From assembly GCF_015476335.1 (NCBI RefSeq), contig NZ_JADAQY010000003.1, forward strand, positions 64,062-128,061: 64,000 nucleotides of DNA, given 5' to 3'. Of the stretch, positions 15 through 61,580 are shown piece by piece; position 1 is the first letter of the stretch, and the number at the start of each line of letters is the position of its first letter. The position numbers and the translations under genes are program-made. This DNA is from Rickettsia endosymbiont of Cardiosporidium cionae. GTDB lineage: Bacteria; Pseudomonadota; Alphaproteobacteria; Rickettsiales; Rickettsiaceae. Below the pieces are notes generated by a model that saw only the letters and a list, made by a program, of their open reading frames with translations, did no database searches and was not told where the DNA came from.

Positions 15-806
15 ATGATTTTTAAAATATTAAACTGGAATATAAATTCCATCAGAGTAAGATCTGATCAATTACTGAATTTAATTGCAATATATAATCC
101 AGATATCATATGTCTACAAGAACTAAAATGTACAGAAGAATCATTCCCTTATAATGAGTTCCAAGATCTAGCATATAATATCTATATAAATGGACAAAAA
201 AGCTATAATGGAGTAGCTATTTTATCTAAATTTACCGCTGAAGACATTAAAATAGATTTTTGTGATAATCCTTGTGTCAAAGAAGCAAGATTCATCAAAA
301 TAATAGTGAATACTCCCATAGGATTTATAAATATCATTTCATTATATGCTCCAAACGGAGGAGAAATAAACAGTAATAAATTTCAGTTAAAGATTCAATT
401 TTTTGAATCTTTAATAAAATACCTAAACAATTTTGATATGCTAGAGGAAAAAACACTTCTCTGTGGAGATCTAAATATAGCACCCTTTAATATAGATGTA
501 TATGACGCAAATGCACTAAAAAATACTACATGCTTTACTTTAACAGAAAAACAGCAAATGAGAAGCATCTTAAATATGGGTTTTATAGACAATTTTCGCC
601 TGAATTACCCTAAAGCACAAGAATTCTCATGGTGGGATTACAGAAAATCTCATTTCAAAAAAAATTTAGGCTATAGGATAGACTTTATATTGTCATCAGC
701 TAACCTAGTAGAATATTTCAGAGACATAGTAATAGAACATAATACAAGAAAATTGCTGCAAGCATCAGATCATGCGCCTTTAATATCTACTTGGGAATCA
801 AAATAA
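15..806 (+). CDS. xthA: Exodeoxyribonuclease III family AP endonuclease (paralogue 1)
   Basis: This 263-residue protein belongs to the exonuclease III / AP endonuclease family, which cuts DNA at abasic sites in base-excision repair. The N-terminal NWNINSIR motif is at residues 7-14, the metal-binding Glu is E36 in LQELK, the GDLN motif gives D152 and N154, RIDFIL lies near residue 225, and the catalytic SDH ends in D252-H253. The full length is typical of the family. A second member lies at 60786-61580. This copy differs in the middle segment (LYAPNGGEIN around 111-119, where the other has FYVPAGGDIP). The ATG at 15 fits the family start. Only 14 bases precede it, so its promoter is outside the window. 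Family is certain; division of labour between the two copies is not known. Confidence 0.93.
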   Translation: MIFKILNWNINSIRVRSDQLLNLIAIYNPDIICLQELKCTEESFPYNEFQDLAYNIYINGQKSYNGVAILSKFTAEDIKIDFCDNPCVKEARFIKIIVNTPIGFINIISLYAPNGGEINSNKFQLKIQFFESLIKYLNNFDMLEEKTLLCGDLNIAPFNIDVYDANALKNTTCFTLTEKQQMRSILNMGFIDNFRLNYPKAQEFSWWDYRKSHFKKNLGYRIDFILSSANLVEYFRDIVIEHNTRKLLQASDHAPLISTWESK

Positions 807-10306: not shown

Positions 10307-11332
10307 TCATGATTTTTTAGCTACGATAATCCCCCAATCATTTATTGATCCACTATAATTTACTTGAGTAAAACCTATTGTATATAATATTTGAGTTATC
10401 TCTGATTTTGAATACTGTCTGCCAGATGAAAAAATATTCATACTCATATTGCATCTGACAGCATTTAACGGACCGGTTCCTAGATCATTCAAAAAAATTT
10501 CATGAATAATAATTAATCCATCCTGATGCAAAGACTGAAAAACTTTTGATAAAACTTGTCGACAGATATCTATAGGCCAATCATGCAAAATATCTGCAAG
10601 AAAATATACATCAGCAGAGAATAAATCATCTACAAGAAAATTTACAGACTCAGTGCGAATTCTATCTCCTAATTTTTCATTTTCTATATATTGCTGAGCA
10701 ATCTTTGTTACCGAAGGCATATCCAAAATTATTGCATTCAATTTTCTGTATCGTTTACACACAGCAACAGAATGGGTACCAAGCCCCCCTCCTAAATCTA
10801 CAAATAACTTTTTATTCTCTAAATCAACAAATTCCGGCCAATAATCGGATGTAAATAGGCTTTTGGCATGCATTGCATAAGTGAATTTTTTCACAATTGC
10901 TTCATCTTCATAATACTGTTTTGAAAATAGCAAACCACCTAAAGGGACTGTCTTATTGTGTAATATTGCTTCTTTGATTTTATTATAACTCCTTGATTCA
11001 TCACAATCCATATAAAGATATCTAACAAAATCACCATAGTAATATTTACTAGAGCTACATAAAAATTTATTTGATGCCTCCGTATTTCTATAATTAAATT
11101 GATCATCGCATAACAACAACCCTTCTGCATAACATAATAACGTCAAGCTCTGTGCCTTTTGATAATCTAAACTAAATTTAGCAGAAATATTTTTAATATT
11201 TTTATAACCATCCTGTAAATAATCAAATAACCCTATATCAATTGCTACAAACACAGCTTTTGATGAGGTTACACGATAACATATATCCCGAATTTTTTGC
11301 TCTTCAGCATTTTGTATATTTTTACCTGACAT
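10307..11332 (-). CDS. SAM-dependent O-methyltransferase, acetylserotonin/hydroxyneurosporene type
   Basis: This 341-residue protein has the two-domain layout of the small-molecule O-methyltransferase family (Methyltransf_2). An N-terminal winged-helix dimerisation part (about 1-100, with AIDIGLFDYL) precedes a Rossmann SAM-binding domain. SAM motif I is VDLGGGLGTH around residue 178, the acidic end of strand 2 is ILDMPSV, and LADILHDW carries the usual catalytic His near residue 243. Family members methylate hydroxyl groups of indoles, flavonoids, polyketides or carotenoid and quinone precursors. No biosynthetic cluster surrounds it, and such an enzyme is unusual in Rickettsiales as far as I know. 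It is a single gene convergent with aspS. Substrate unknown. Confidence 0.85.
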   Translation of the reverse strand: MSGKNIQNAEEQKIRDICYRVTSSKAVFVAIDIGLFDYLQDGYKNIKNISAKFSLDYQKAQSLTLLCYAEGLLLCDDQFNYRNTEASNKFLCSSSKYYYGDFVRYLYMDCDESRSYNKIKEAILHNKTVPLGGLLFSKQYYEDEAIVKKFTYAMHAKSLFTSDYWPEFVDLENKKLFVDLGGGLGTHSVAVCKRYRKLNAIILDMPSVTKIAQQYIENEKLGDRIRTESVNFLVDDLFSADVYFLADILHDWPIDICRQVLSKVFQSLHQDGLIIIHEIFLNDLGTGPLNAVRCNMSMNIFSSGRQYSKSEITQILYTIGFTQVNYSGSINDWGIIVAKKS

Positions 11333-13563: not shown

Positions 13564-16500
13564 TTAAATATTGAGTGTAATTTTCAAATAGGGTTTATGT
13601 ATTGTATATCTGGTATGATTCATATCAATTCCATACCCAATAGATCCAATAAAATTATAGTAATTAATATTCAAAGCTGCATCTAAGTTATAATTTAATG
13701 TATTGTTCAAGGCTTTATTCTGTATGATAGATAATTGAGAAATATCTTTTGGCTGCGTTATACTGTCCTGACTATTATGGATTTGGTACATAACTAAACC
13801 CTTTAAATAAAAACTATAAAATAAGTTATCTGCCACTTCAATTGCACGAGAGTTAATAATAGATCCCAATACCAAAGAACAACTACTTAAACCATCCTGA
13901 TCAGTCAATAAATCTTTATCCGATCTTTTATAACTAGTAGGATTTAAATTAGTGTATTGGATGCCGCATATCGGGCTCAGTATACAATATTCAGAAAGAT
14001 ATTCATATCCGAGTAAGGCAGACAGTGAGTAAATTTTACGATTGTTATAACAATAATTCACTTCATCTATTAAATTTTGTACTTCTAATTTATCCACGCT
14101 AAATAGCCCAAAAGAATTAGTAATTTCTATAAAATTTCTATTTTTAGTGTAATATCTACCAAATATTGAAAATAATGTATCATTAATAGTAATTTTATTA
14201 TCTTCTATGGCACTCTGATATCTTATTTTTTTTATAGAACGGTTAATAGATGTACATAAACAATAACTATGATGCATTATATGATCAATGACAATCTTTA
14301 CATTATGAATATCAACATCATATAAGGTATTTTTATTAAAAGGTTTTTGTTTTATATTATCATGTAATTGTTTTAAATATACACCTCGAGAAAACAATTT
14401 AGTATCGACGAAATTAACATTAGCAGATTCTATATTATTGTATAAGTTAGAATATCTGTGGTTAAGATATTGAGACAAGAAATCACTATGTTCATTAACA
14501 TCTTTTAAGATTTCTACCTCTTCTACAGCATAAAACAATTTTTTTTGATTATTTGGTAATGTAGGATTAGCATCTTCATTCAATTTTTTCTTTGAGTCAT
14601 TTCTTTCAATATCACCTAAGCCATCCTCAATCAATTCATTTTCACTTCTTTCACTATCACTTAGATCATCCTTAATCAAGCCACCTGCGCTCTTTTCACT
14701 ATCACTTAATTCAATACCAGATAATGCACCTTCATTCCCAGTAACATCACTATCTCTATCACTATCTCTATCACTATCAGTATATATATTATATACTTTA
14801 AGAGCAGGAGACGCAATAATATCATGAAAATTAAATGATACAGGAAAAAAAATCCTGGTAACTTTTATTGAATAATCACTATCTCTATGGCTATCAGTAT
14901 ATAAAATATGTAATTTAGAAGCAGAAAGCAATTTTCTATTAATAGAATTATGAATGATTTTTCTTTTAAAGTTCAGGAGCTTTTTTTTACTATGACGAGC
15001 TATATATTTTCTATTAGTAAGAATTTTAACAATTTTCTTAACATCATTAGTATTAGCAGTATTTTTGAGAGGTTGTTCTAATCCATCATTCACTCCTACA
15101 GACTTTACACCCGGCTCTGTACTGAAAGTTTTTGCATTATGAATGATTTTTCTTTTAAAATTCAGGAGCTTTTTGTTATCATGATGAGCTACATGTTTTT
15201 TATTAGTAGATTTTTTATTGTGATTTTTATTAATCAGCTGATTATGAATTTTAACAAATTTCTTACTACCAGTAGTGTTAGCAGTATTTTTGAGAGGTTG
15301 TTCTAATCCATCATTCACTCCTACAGACTTTACACCTGGCTCTGTACTGAAAGTTTTTGCATTATGAATGATTTTTCTTTTAAAGTTCAGGAGCTTTTTG
15401 TTATCATGATGAGCTACATGTTTTTTATTAGTAGATTTTTTATTGTGACTTTTATTAATCAGCTGATTATGAATTTTAACAATTTTCTTAACATCATTAG
15501 TATTAGTACTACATCTTGAGGTAGATCTTTTAGCACTATCAAATGTTCTATGTGACATTTCGCTACTATTCTTTCTATCATTAGCATTTTTTACTCTCTT
15601 ATTACTTACAAAACTGCTATCTATAAGACTTTTATCTTCAATATTATTACCTTTATAAAAACGATAGTTCAAAAAATTCTGATCATATTCTGCTTTAATC
15701 TTATTTTTCAAGTTTATCAACTCTGATATAATTGCATTACATTCTCCAGAGTTATTAACAATAAAATATTTAATAGATGAATAATCTTTATTAAGGACCT
15801 TTATTAAATTATTTATAGCTTCAGTATACTCGCCATCTGCTATAGTGAATCTGCTATTCAATGCTATAAAATCACTATTATTATCAATATTATCTTTGTC
15901 TAAAGTTACCTTTTGTAAATTATATTCTAATTTTATAATTTTTATTAAATATTCTTTCATACCTTTTATTACACTGCTTTCAGATAATAGACTTTTAGGA
16001 GTATTGACATATAGTTGAGACATAGGATATACAGATTCTATAGATTCTGAAGAGGAAGTATTTTGTATACTTCCAGAATTTATTAACTCCATAGTAGACT
16101 CACTAAATACTGTATTAAATGTTTCAGCAAATAATTTAAATCCATTAGAATTAGTTACAACATTATGCAATTCATTGTTACCACTATTCTTATGATTCTC
16201 ATTCTTATTATTTATGACTGTGTCCTGTATAGTAGAGCGTTTCTTCTTAAAGCGCTTTAAATCTAACACTAATTTGGATATTGGTAATGAATTATTAATA
16301 TCCAATTTTTGAATATTAGAGGAGTGTTCATTAAGAAACCCAACAATATTATCTATAGCTTTATCATACTCAAGCAGCTCTGTTTTATGACTATTGGTAC
16401 TTTTACCTGAACTCATTTCTGATAAGTTATTTTCTAGCAAAAGCAAATCTTCTGAGTATTTCTGCATATTATTAATAATAATAGAAATACCCTCAGAAGA

Positions 16501-16752
16501 TGGACTACGATGATTTATTCTAGAAGCAGATTGTGACAATGCTGACTTATATAAGCCACATCTAGAATTTATCAACTCAAATGTAGATTTACTAAATATT
16601 GTCTGGAACTTTTTAATAAATAATTCAAATTCATTAGAACCATATGAGATATTAAATGTTAGTATTACAATGATTAATGCAATAAATACATAAAACCTGC
16701 TAGCTATACCATTAAAACTATTTCTAAAAAGCATCCGATACAGTAACTTCAC
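13564..16752 (-). CDS. Large repeat-containing surface protein, autotransporter-like
   Basis: I do not recognise an orthologue for this 1062-residue protein. It has a long signal sequence with a hydrophobic core at about 20-37 ending near ISYGS, as in autotransporters. Two related helical domains follow (42-174 and 204-355), each opening with F.LF...F.T.FS.ST.ELINS. Next is a very basic Lys/His/Asn-rich tract with two nearly identical 75-residue repeats (418-492 and 493-567) and a decayed third. Acidic Ser-Asp tracts follow (YTDSDRDSDRDSD and LSDSE..). The last 280 or so residues alternate polar and hydrophobic residues like a beta-barrel, with LLGYEYLSEY and CGIQYTNLNPTSY resembling autotransporter barrels. 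It ends in LNI rather than the usual aromatic residue. Most likely a secreted surface protein of Sca type; function unknown. Confidence 0.7.
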   Translation of the reverse strand: MKLLYRMLFRNSFNGIASRFYVFIALIIVILTFNISYGSNEFELFIKKFQTIFSKSTFELINSRCGLYKSALSQSASRINHRSPSSEGISIIINNMQKYSEDLLLLENNLSEMSSGKSTNSHKTELLEYDKAIDNIVGFLNEHSSNIQKLDINNSLPISKLVLDLKRFKKKRSTIQDTVINNKNENHKNSGNNELHNVVTNSNGFKLFAETFNTVFSESTMELINSGSIQNTSSSESIESVYPMSQLYVNTPKSLLSESSVIKGMKEYLIKIIKLEYNLQKVTLDKDNIDNNSDFIALNSRFTIADGEYTEAINNLIKVLNKDYSSIKYFIVNNSGECNAIISELINLKNKIKAEYDQNFLNYRFYKGNNIEDKSLIDSSFVSNKRVKNANDRKNSSEMSHRTFDSAKRSTSRCSTNTNDVKKIVKIHNQLINKSHNKKSTNKKHVAHHDNKKLLNFKRKIIHNAKTFSTEPGVKSVGVNDGLEQPLKNTANTTGSKKFVKIHNQLINKNHNKKSTNKKHVAHHDNKKLLNFKRKIIHNAKTFSTEPGVKSVGVNDGLEQPLKNTANTNDVKKIVKILTNRKYIARHSKKKLLNFKRKIIHNSINRKLLSASKLHILYTDSHRDSDYSIKVTRIFFPVSFNFHDIIASPALKVYNIYTDSDRDSDRDSDVTGNEGALSGIELSDSEKSAGGLIKDDLSDSERSENELIEDGLGDIERNDSKKKLNEDANPTLPNNQKKLFYAVEEVEILKDVNEHSDFLSQYLNHRYSNLYNNIESANVNFVDTKLFSRGVYLKQLHDNIKQKPFNKNTLYDVDIHNVKIVIDHIMHHSYCLCTSINRSIKKIRYQSAIEDNKITINDTLFSIFGRYYTKNRNFIEITNSFGLFSVDKLEVQNLIDEVNYCYNNRKIYSLSALLGYEYLSEYCILSPICGIQYTNLNPTSYKRSDKDLLTDQDGLSSCSLVLGSIINSRAIEVADNLFYSFYLKGLVMYQIHNSQDSITQPKDISQLSIIQNKALNNTLNYNLDAALNINYYNFIGSIGYGIDMNHTRYTIHKPYLKITLNI
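14747..14782 (-). repeat. 12-bp in-frame microsatellite (Asp-Ser-Asp-Arg units)
   Basis: Three head-to-tail copies of the 12-mer tcactatctcta (plus-strand view; the last ends in agta) code for repeated D-S-D-R. Because the unit is a multiple of three, copy-number change would alter protein length without breaking the frame. A related sequence (tcactatctcta followed by tggctatcagta) recurs near 14876-14901, giving YTDSHRDSD. Confidence 0.9.
15052..15501 (-). repeat. Two tandem 225-bp coding repeats
   Basis: Two copies (15277-15501 and 15052-15276) are nearly identical and lie head to tail in frame, each coding 75 residues. A third, diverged and internally deleted copy continues at about 14925-15051; it keeps the KKLLNFKRKIIHN segment but lacks the TFSTEPGVKSVGVNDG part. 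Within the first two copies only a handful of bases differ, the clearest being TNDVKKIV against TTGSKKFV at the start of each unit. This points to a recent duplication. Confidence 0.95.
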
Positions 16753-60785: not shown

Positions 60786-61580
60786 CTAACTAAAAATATT
60801 CAGGTCTAATATACAAGGGACATGATCTGAGGGTCTCTCCCAATCTCTTGCCTCACACAATATTTCCATATTTTGTATAGAATTTTTTAAAGAATGACTA
60901 ACCCATATATGATCTAATCTTCTTCCTCTATCAGATTTTTTCCAATCACGATTCCTATAACTCCACCAACTATATAACTTATTGTTATAATCTACGAAAT
61001 GCCTTGCTGTATCTAAAAATCCGCACAAATTTTGCAACCGAATTAACATATCTCTTTCAACATCGGTATGGCTTACCACAAATTTTAATGCTTTACTAGA
61101 CCATACATCCTGAGCATAAGGAGCGATATTTAAATCACCTAACAATATTATTTTATTATTACTAAATCTATTACGAATAAACCAATCCATCATTAACGTA
61201 ATAAATGATAATTTATGATCAAATTTAGTATTAATTGCAGCATCAGGTATATCACCACCAGCTGGGACGTAGAAATTAAATATTTCTATATCCTCTATTG
61301 TTGCTGAAATATGCCTTGCATCTTGATTATAAAAAGTTAATGAAAAAACATTTGTAAGGGGGTATTTAGAGGCAATAGCGACTCCGTTATAAGATTTCTC
61401 TCCTTTAAACACAACATATTTGTATCCCATGGCCTGAATTTCTGCTAATGGAAATAAAGGATCCACTACTTTAGTTTCTTGCAAACAAATTACATCGGGC
61501 GATCTAAGCTTGATAAATTTATGCAATAATTTAATCCTAGCATGTATTGAATTAATATTCCAAGTAGCAATTTTAAGCAT
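60786..61580 (-). CDS. xthA: Exodeoxyribonuclease III (paralogue 2)
   Basis: This 264-residue AP endonuclease has the full set of family motifs: ATWNINSIH at 5-13, metal-binding Glu in LQETKV near 36, SYNGVAIASK, FYVPAGGDIPD, GDLNIAP near 148-154, RGRRLDHIWVS near 228, and the catalytic SDH in SDHVP near the end. It is closer to the usual bacterial ExoIII pattern than the paralogue at 15-806. Catalytic residues are intact in both. It lies 83 bp downstream of ubiB on the same strand. Confidence 0.95.
   Translation of the reverse strand: MLKIATWNINSIHARIKLLHKFIKLRSPDVICLQETKVVDPLFPLAEIQAMGYKYVVFKGEKSYNGVAIASKYPLTNVFSLTFYNQDARHISATIEDIEIFNFYVPAGGDIPDAAINTKFDHKLSFITLMMDWFIRNRFSNNKIILLGDLNIAPYAQDVWSSKALKFVVSHTDVERDMLIRLQNLCGFLDTARHFVDYNNKLYSWWSYRNRDWKKSDRGRRLDHIWVSHSLKNSIQNMEILCEARDWERPSDHVPCILDLNIFS

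Follow-up and report, generated by a model that had tools for sequence, protein, structure and literature searches.

A gene on the minus strand of the 64,000-nucleotide stretch analysed here (hereafter the window), from the Rickettsia endosymbiont of Cardiosporidium cionae, probably encodes a working, lineage-specific, Sca-like classical autotransporter (type V secretion) with a helical, duplicated passenger, a reading to which we assign a probability of about two in three. For rickettsial Sca proteins type V secretion is established, i.e. export, insertion of a barrel and presentation of the passenger on the surface (PMC10414592, PMC1388218). In the present case, export of the protein would depend on a Sec signal sequence, and its last 280 residues would form an outer-membrane beta-barrel. 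The passenger displayed by this barrel would be the module of residues 42-355, duplicated and probably alpha-helical, carried by a stalk that is at first basic and repeat-rich and then acidic. The gene would most likely have originated as a duplicate of a canonical autotransporter gene that the genome still contains. After this duplication the passenger may have been replaced or may have diverged beyond recognition, and the barrel would have evolved several times faster with its membrane-compatible pattern kept.

The frame is opened by a GTG at position 16752 and comprises 1062 codons in the reverse complement of 13564-16752, with the stop at 13564-13566; translation could equally well begin at an in-frame ATG at residue 7 (16734). 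On the plus strand the same interval contains 67 stops, and the 1062-residue open frame of the original prediction, which gave no strand, is real and lies on the minus strand. The gene stands alone, about 500 bp from the divergent hisS (46-50% identity to its nearest named relatives in Rickettsia and other Rickettsiaceae) and about 430 bp from the next gene on the same strand, which encodes a TLC-family ATP/ADP translocase. Shuffled sequences contain as many promoter-like sites as this region does. The genome assembly from which the window derives measures 1.05 Mb in 29 contigs and is 95% complete.

By hydropathy only, residues 1-38 (16639..16752, minus strand) resemble a signal peptide with a basic start and a hydrophobic stretch at residues 22-36, which is the sole strongly hydrophobic stretch of the protein and lies at the position expected of a signal peptide. 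It is followed by two copies of an N-terminal module, copy 1 at residues 42-174 (16231..16629, minus strand) and copy 2 at residues 204-355 (15688..16143, minus strand). The motifs that had been quoted for them (FELFIKKFQTIFSKSTFELINS and FKLFAETFNTVFSESTMELINS; AIDNIVGFLNEHSSNIQKLDINN and AINNLIKVLNKDYSSIKYFIVNN) match the letters exactly. BLASTP aligns the two copies along their length with 29% identity (E 5e-12), and their Smith-Waterman score is 145, whereas 10,000 composition-preserving shuffles average 38.9 (sd 6.9) with 75 as their highest value; the highest block shuffle gives 92. When the opening motif is left out, the two copies still score 94, and no shuffle exceeds 76. At the DNA level the opening motif is 77% identical between the copies over 82 nt, and a two-copy profile run against the genome finds exactly two places, both inside this gene. 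Because the alignment exceeds all shuffles, the opening motif is so similar in DNA and the profile returns two places, we regard the N-terminal duplication as real.

The composition of the protein is indeed biased (N 11.7%, S 10.9%, K 10.1%), and such a bias might let two Asn/Ser/Lys-rich segments resemble each other by coincidence. This explanation of the doubled module is, however, ruled out by the shuffles, as the score is out of reach of all 10,000 shuffles, full or block, whether or not the opening motif is removed, and the 77% identity of the opening motif's DNA likewise speaks against it; we consider its probability negligible. The ancient domain duplication that had been proposed is therefore upheld by the BLASTP alignment, the shuffles and the DNA of the opening motif, while the 'basic end' ascribed to both copies is clear in the first repeat but weak in the second. 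The module is probably alpha-helical, to judge from the hydropathy of the N-terminal half, in which the power at the helical angle lies above shuffles (z 2.25) and that at the strand angle below them (z -1.8). An AlphaFold2 model of residues 35-374 alone was all helix, but its pLDDT of 39.7 is too poor to interpret.

Comparison of residues 7-374 with 85 Rickettsiaceae genomes revealed no convincing relative, only scattered weak matches of chance size. Across 344 Rickettsiales genomes the two-copy profile likewise found nothing convincing, the scattered, chance-sized matches having a best E of 3e-4 per genome. The module is thus an orphan at the search sensitivity used. A PDB sequence search with the N-terminal half returned nothing useful, and scans of IMG/VR found no relatives. 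With no match to Pfam or NCBIfam and no convincing relative of the N-terminal part in either genome set, the protein merits the term 'unrecognised' under which it was first described.

Between the module and the C-terminal domain lie the repeats and acidic tracts that had also been described. Two tandem, strongly basic repeats of 225 nt (75 codons), 96% identical to each other, occupy residues 429-578 (15018..15467, minus strand), and a further degenerate partial copy is found at 14947-15028, so that the 225-nt unit is present in about 2.2 copies of 94-96% identity. One replacement and three silent changes separate the two repeat copies over their first 64 codons, too few for a conclusion. An acidic, Ser/Asp-rich linker of low complexity extends over about residues 655-720 (14593..14790, minus strand).

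Residues 783-1062 (13567..14406, minus strand) constitute a highly divergent autotransporter beta-domain. Within the same genome, residues 783-1061 match a gene on contig C2 over the full length of the domain (27% identity, E 4.7e-26), and the same region is also matched by proteins of several other Rickettsiaceae; the Rickettsiaceae relatives that were tested match PF03797 directly (E 1e-21 to 3e-41). A Rickettsiaceae barrel profile, built without the window protein and without both of its genome-mates, matches residues 788-1061 with 79.8 bits over model positions 23-299 of 300, compared with 6.1 bits for the best of 200 shuffles and 4.1 for the reversed sequence. An hhalign comparison of the domain with the family, using a profile that includes the C2 paralogue, gave a probability of 98.9 (E 1e-17), and a wider family profile reaches the solved autotransporters NalP, EstA and EspP. 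A PDB sequence search with the barrel itself returned nothing useful, and an AlphaFold2 model of residues 759-1062 with one relative (two rows) had a mean pLDDT of 30.3 and is uninterpretable.

Despite this homology, Pfam yields zero matches for the whole protein or for the C-terminal 278 residues, which stay below the curated cut-off of 26 bits for PF03797, and NCBIfam yields zero matches up to E 1, with the OmpA, OmpB and Sca2 models included. Judged from its sequence, the domain is homologous to the PF03797 family, yet outside it by Pfam's own rule. The autotransporter layout suggested by the original prediction is supported by this full-domain homology to PF03797-type beta-domains, and its remark that no known Sca or OmpA name fits agrees with the lack of a matching NCBIfam model.

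Pfam finds two autotransporter barrels in the assembly, both of which had been missed by the original prediction, and the window protein is the third. The autotransporter at the end of contig C2 (G000:C2 end, L075:4523-6385, minus strand) has its frame cut by the contig end, with 621 residues present, and matches PF03797 (E 1.4e-21) as well as the OmpB and OmpA models in their barrel part. Its beta-domain is the nearest relative of that of the window protein and is homologous to it over the full length, with a shared insertion NNRK(I/L)YS and a shared end HKPYLK. However, the passenger part present consists of Ser/Asn/Asp-rich repeats that have no similarity to the window passenger, and the C2 barrel is canonical and matches PF03797, whereas the window barrel does not. 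Contig C5 opens with an exact copy of the last 127 nt of the C2 autotransporter (L076:1-127) and then continues with different DNA; this is likely either a second copy of the 3' end or an assembly-graph overlap. The autotransporter on contig C11 (G000:C11, L111:4833-8450, plus strand) is intact, with 1200 aa from ATG, and combines a long, coiled-coil-like passenger rich in Lys, Glu and Gln with a divergent barrel (PF03797 2e-18, only positions 1-198).

The putative barrel of the window protein is, in comparisons of sequence, exceptionally divergent, a finding that is new here. The ten other members of the family are invariant at 22 columns, of which the window protein retains 12; if the comparison is repeated with each of the ten left out in turn, that member keeps 22 of 22-24. 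The ten changed columns comprise a tryptophan (to tyrosine), five glycines, one proline, one tyrosine and two lysines. With the C11 autotransporter added to the comparison, the window protein keeps 8 of 15. Maximum-likelihood trees, whose placement of long branches is uncertain, pair the window protein with the C2 paralogue at support values of 97/93 to 100/99. The terminal branch of the window protein measures 2.4-2.6 changes per column and that of the paralogue 0.44-0.59, a ratio of about 4-6. The C11 autotransporter likewise sits on a long branch (2.34), and the window gene is therefore not alone in having a fast barrel; even so, the C11 barrel is still recognised by PF03797. The 'barrel-like' C-terminus of the original prediction is hence sustained as regards homology to autotransporter barrels, but the extent of the divergence had escaped it.

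Nevertheless, the hydrophobic pattern of the family is preserved. Hydropathy along the domain correlates with that of the family (r 0.55), while shuffles reach at most 0.20 and circular shifts at most 0.15, and the window protein has a hydrophobic residue at 84% of the family-hydrophobic columns. Residues private to the window protein are themselves preferentially hydrophobic at these columns (odds ratio 4.0, p 0.0026), with odds ratios of 2.1-5.3 in canonical members. Membrane-facing columns thus stay hydrophobic despite private substitutions, which argues for a maintained barrel over decay. Other properties count against the barrel reading: alternation at the strand period is at shuffle level (z -0.2, compared with 1.1-4.6 in relatives), glycine makes up 3.9% of the domain versus 6.7-13.1% in relatives, and the domain contains six cysteines and no tryptophan. 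The non-aromatic last residue, Ile, is a weak counterpoint, as two accepted relatives end in Leu.

The long branch relative to that of the paralogue, the loss of family-invariant residues and the weak strand alternation could also be signs of a decaying autotransporter, i.e. of a copy that lost its function after the duplication and is drifting towards a pseudogene, with a frame left open by chance or because the relaxation is recent. Indeed, sca genes in Rickettsia commonly decay into split genes and pseudogenes (PMC1388218). Yet the frame runs through 1062 codons without a stop in DNA of 27% GC, its codon-position composition (0.333/0.286/0.188) falls in the order seen in neighbouring genes, and the alignment of the beta-domain is free of frameshifts or stops throughout. 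Together with private substitutions that at membrane-facing columns are hydrophobic as in canonical members, these observations render decay unlikely in our view, though worth keeping in mind. Changed family-invariant positions and a barrel with low glycine and six cysteines might also be expected of an outer-membrane protein that has been repurposed, in which the barrel folds but translocates no passenger and the N-terminal half stays in the periplasm. We consider such a change of role improbable, since the parts of the protein follow one another as in autotransporters (signal-like start, passenger, stalk, C-terminal domain) and no sequence feature favours periplasmic retention.

A working, lineage-specific autotransporter would have known counterparts in the Rickettsia Sca family (OmpA, OmpB, Sca1, Sca2), with which the window protein shares the layout and a homologous C-terminal domain, and in which lineage-variable passengers are typical (PMC1388218). 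The cleaved beta-fragment of rOmpB begins with GDE (PMC10414592). Several relatives carry AAGD(E) before the barrel; this motif is absent in the window protein and in the C2 paralogue, so the window passenger may stay attached. Conservation in Sca1 resides in the barrel, whereas in the window protein the barrel too is fast. The short, helical coiled-coil passenger of Orientia tsutsugamushi ScaC recruits a host motor adaptor (PMC12229497), and ScaC, like the putative window autotransporter, belongs to the Rickettsiaceae; its passenger is alpha-helical, as is probable for the window passenger, and the analogy is only one of how the proteins may work. In contrast to the window passenger, which has no convincing sequence relative in the 85 Rickettsiaceae genomes, that of ScaC comprises 191 residues, forms a dimeric coiled coil and binds BICD1/2 (PMC12229497). 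By this analogy the displayed module would most likely bind a host protein, and a role as host-interaction factor is plausible from the example of the Sca proteins. A bolder proposal, about which we are more doubtful than hopeful, is that the module represents a new helical fold or a new host-binding domain invented by this lineage, carried on a rapidly, perhaps adaptively, evolving barrel; if true, it would contrast with the conserved barrels of known Sca proteins.

PF03797 matches occur in 79 of the 85 Rickettsiaceae genomes. The available genome of the same genus, whose assembly is 91% complete, has no PF03797 match; it does not preserve the gene order seen here near hisS and the ATP/ADP translocases, and it contains no orthologue. 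No close orthologue of the window gene was found among the genomes compared, and as far as these genomes show (one per species, including the same-genus assembly), the gene is species- or lineage-specific among them. Since automatic annotation misses it entirely, counts of autotransporters in reduced Rickettsiaceae genomes that are based on PF03797 can be too low. Moreover, the barrel, usually the conserved part, has strongly diverged here and may offer a test case for drift that is compatible with function.

The Rickettsia endosymbiont of Bradysia coprophila has a gene with an autotransporter barrel (L020:11318-13312, minus strand) that directly adjoins hisS on the opposite strand and whose frame contains a long low-complexity run of LLSLQI repeats. 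Elsewhere in the window, a gene at 10307-11332 (minus strand) that adjoins a TLC nucleotide translocase encodes a PF00891 O-methyltransferase with a dimerisation domain. Finally, the frames at 15-806 (plus strand) and 60786-61580 (minus strand) both appear by eye to be exonuclease III/AP endonuclease-like, in a genome that is reduced.
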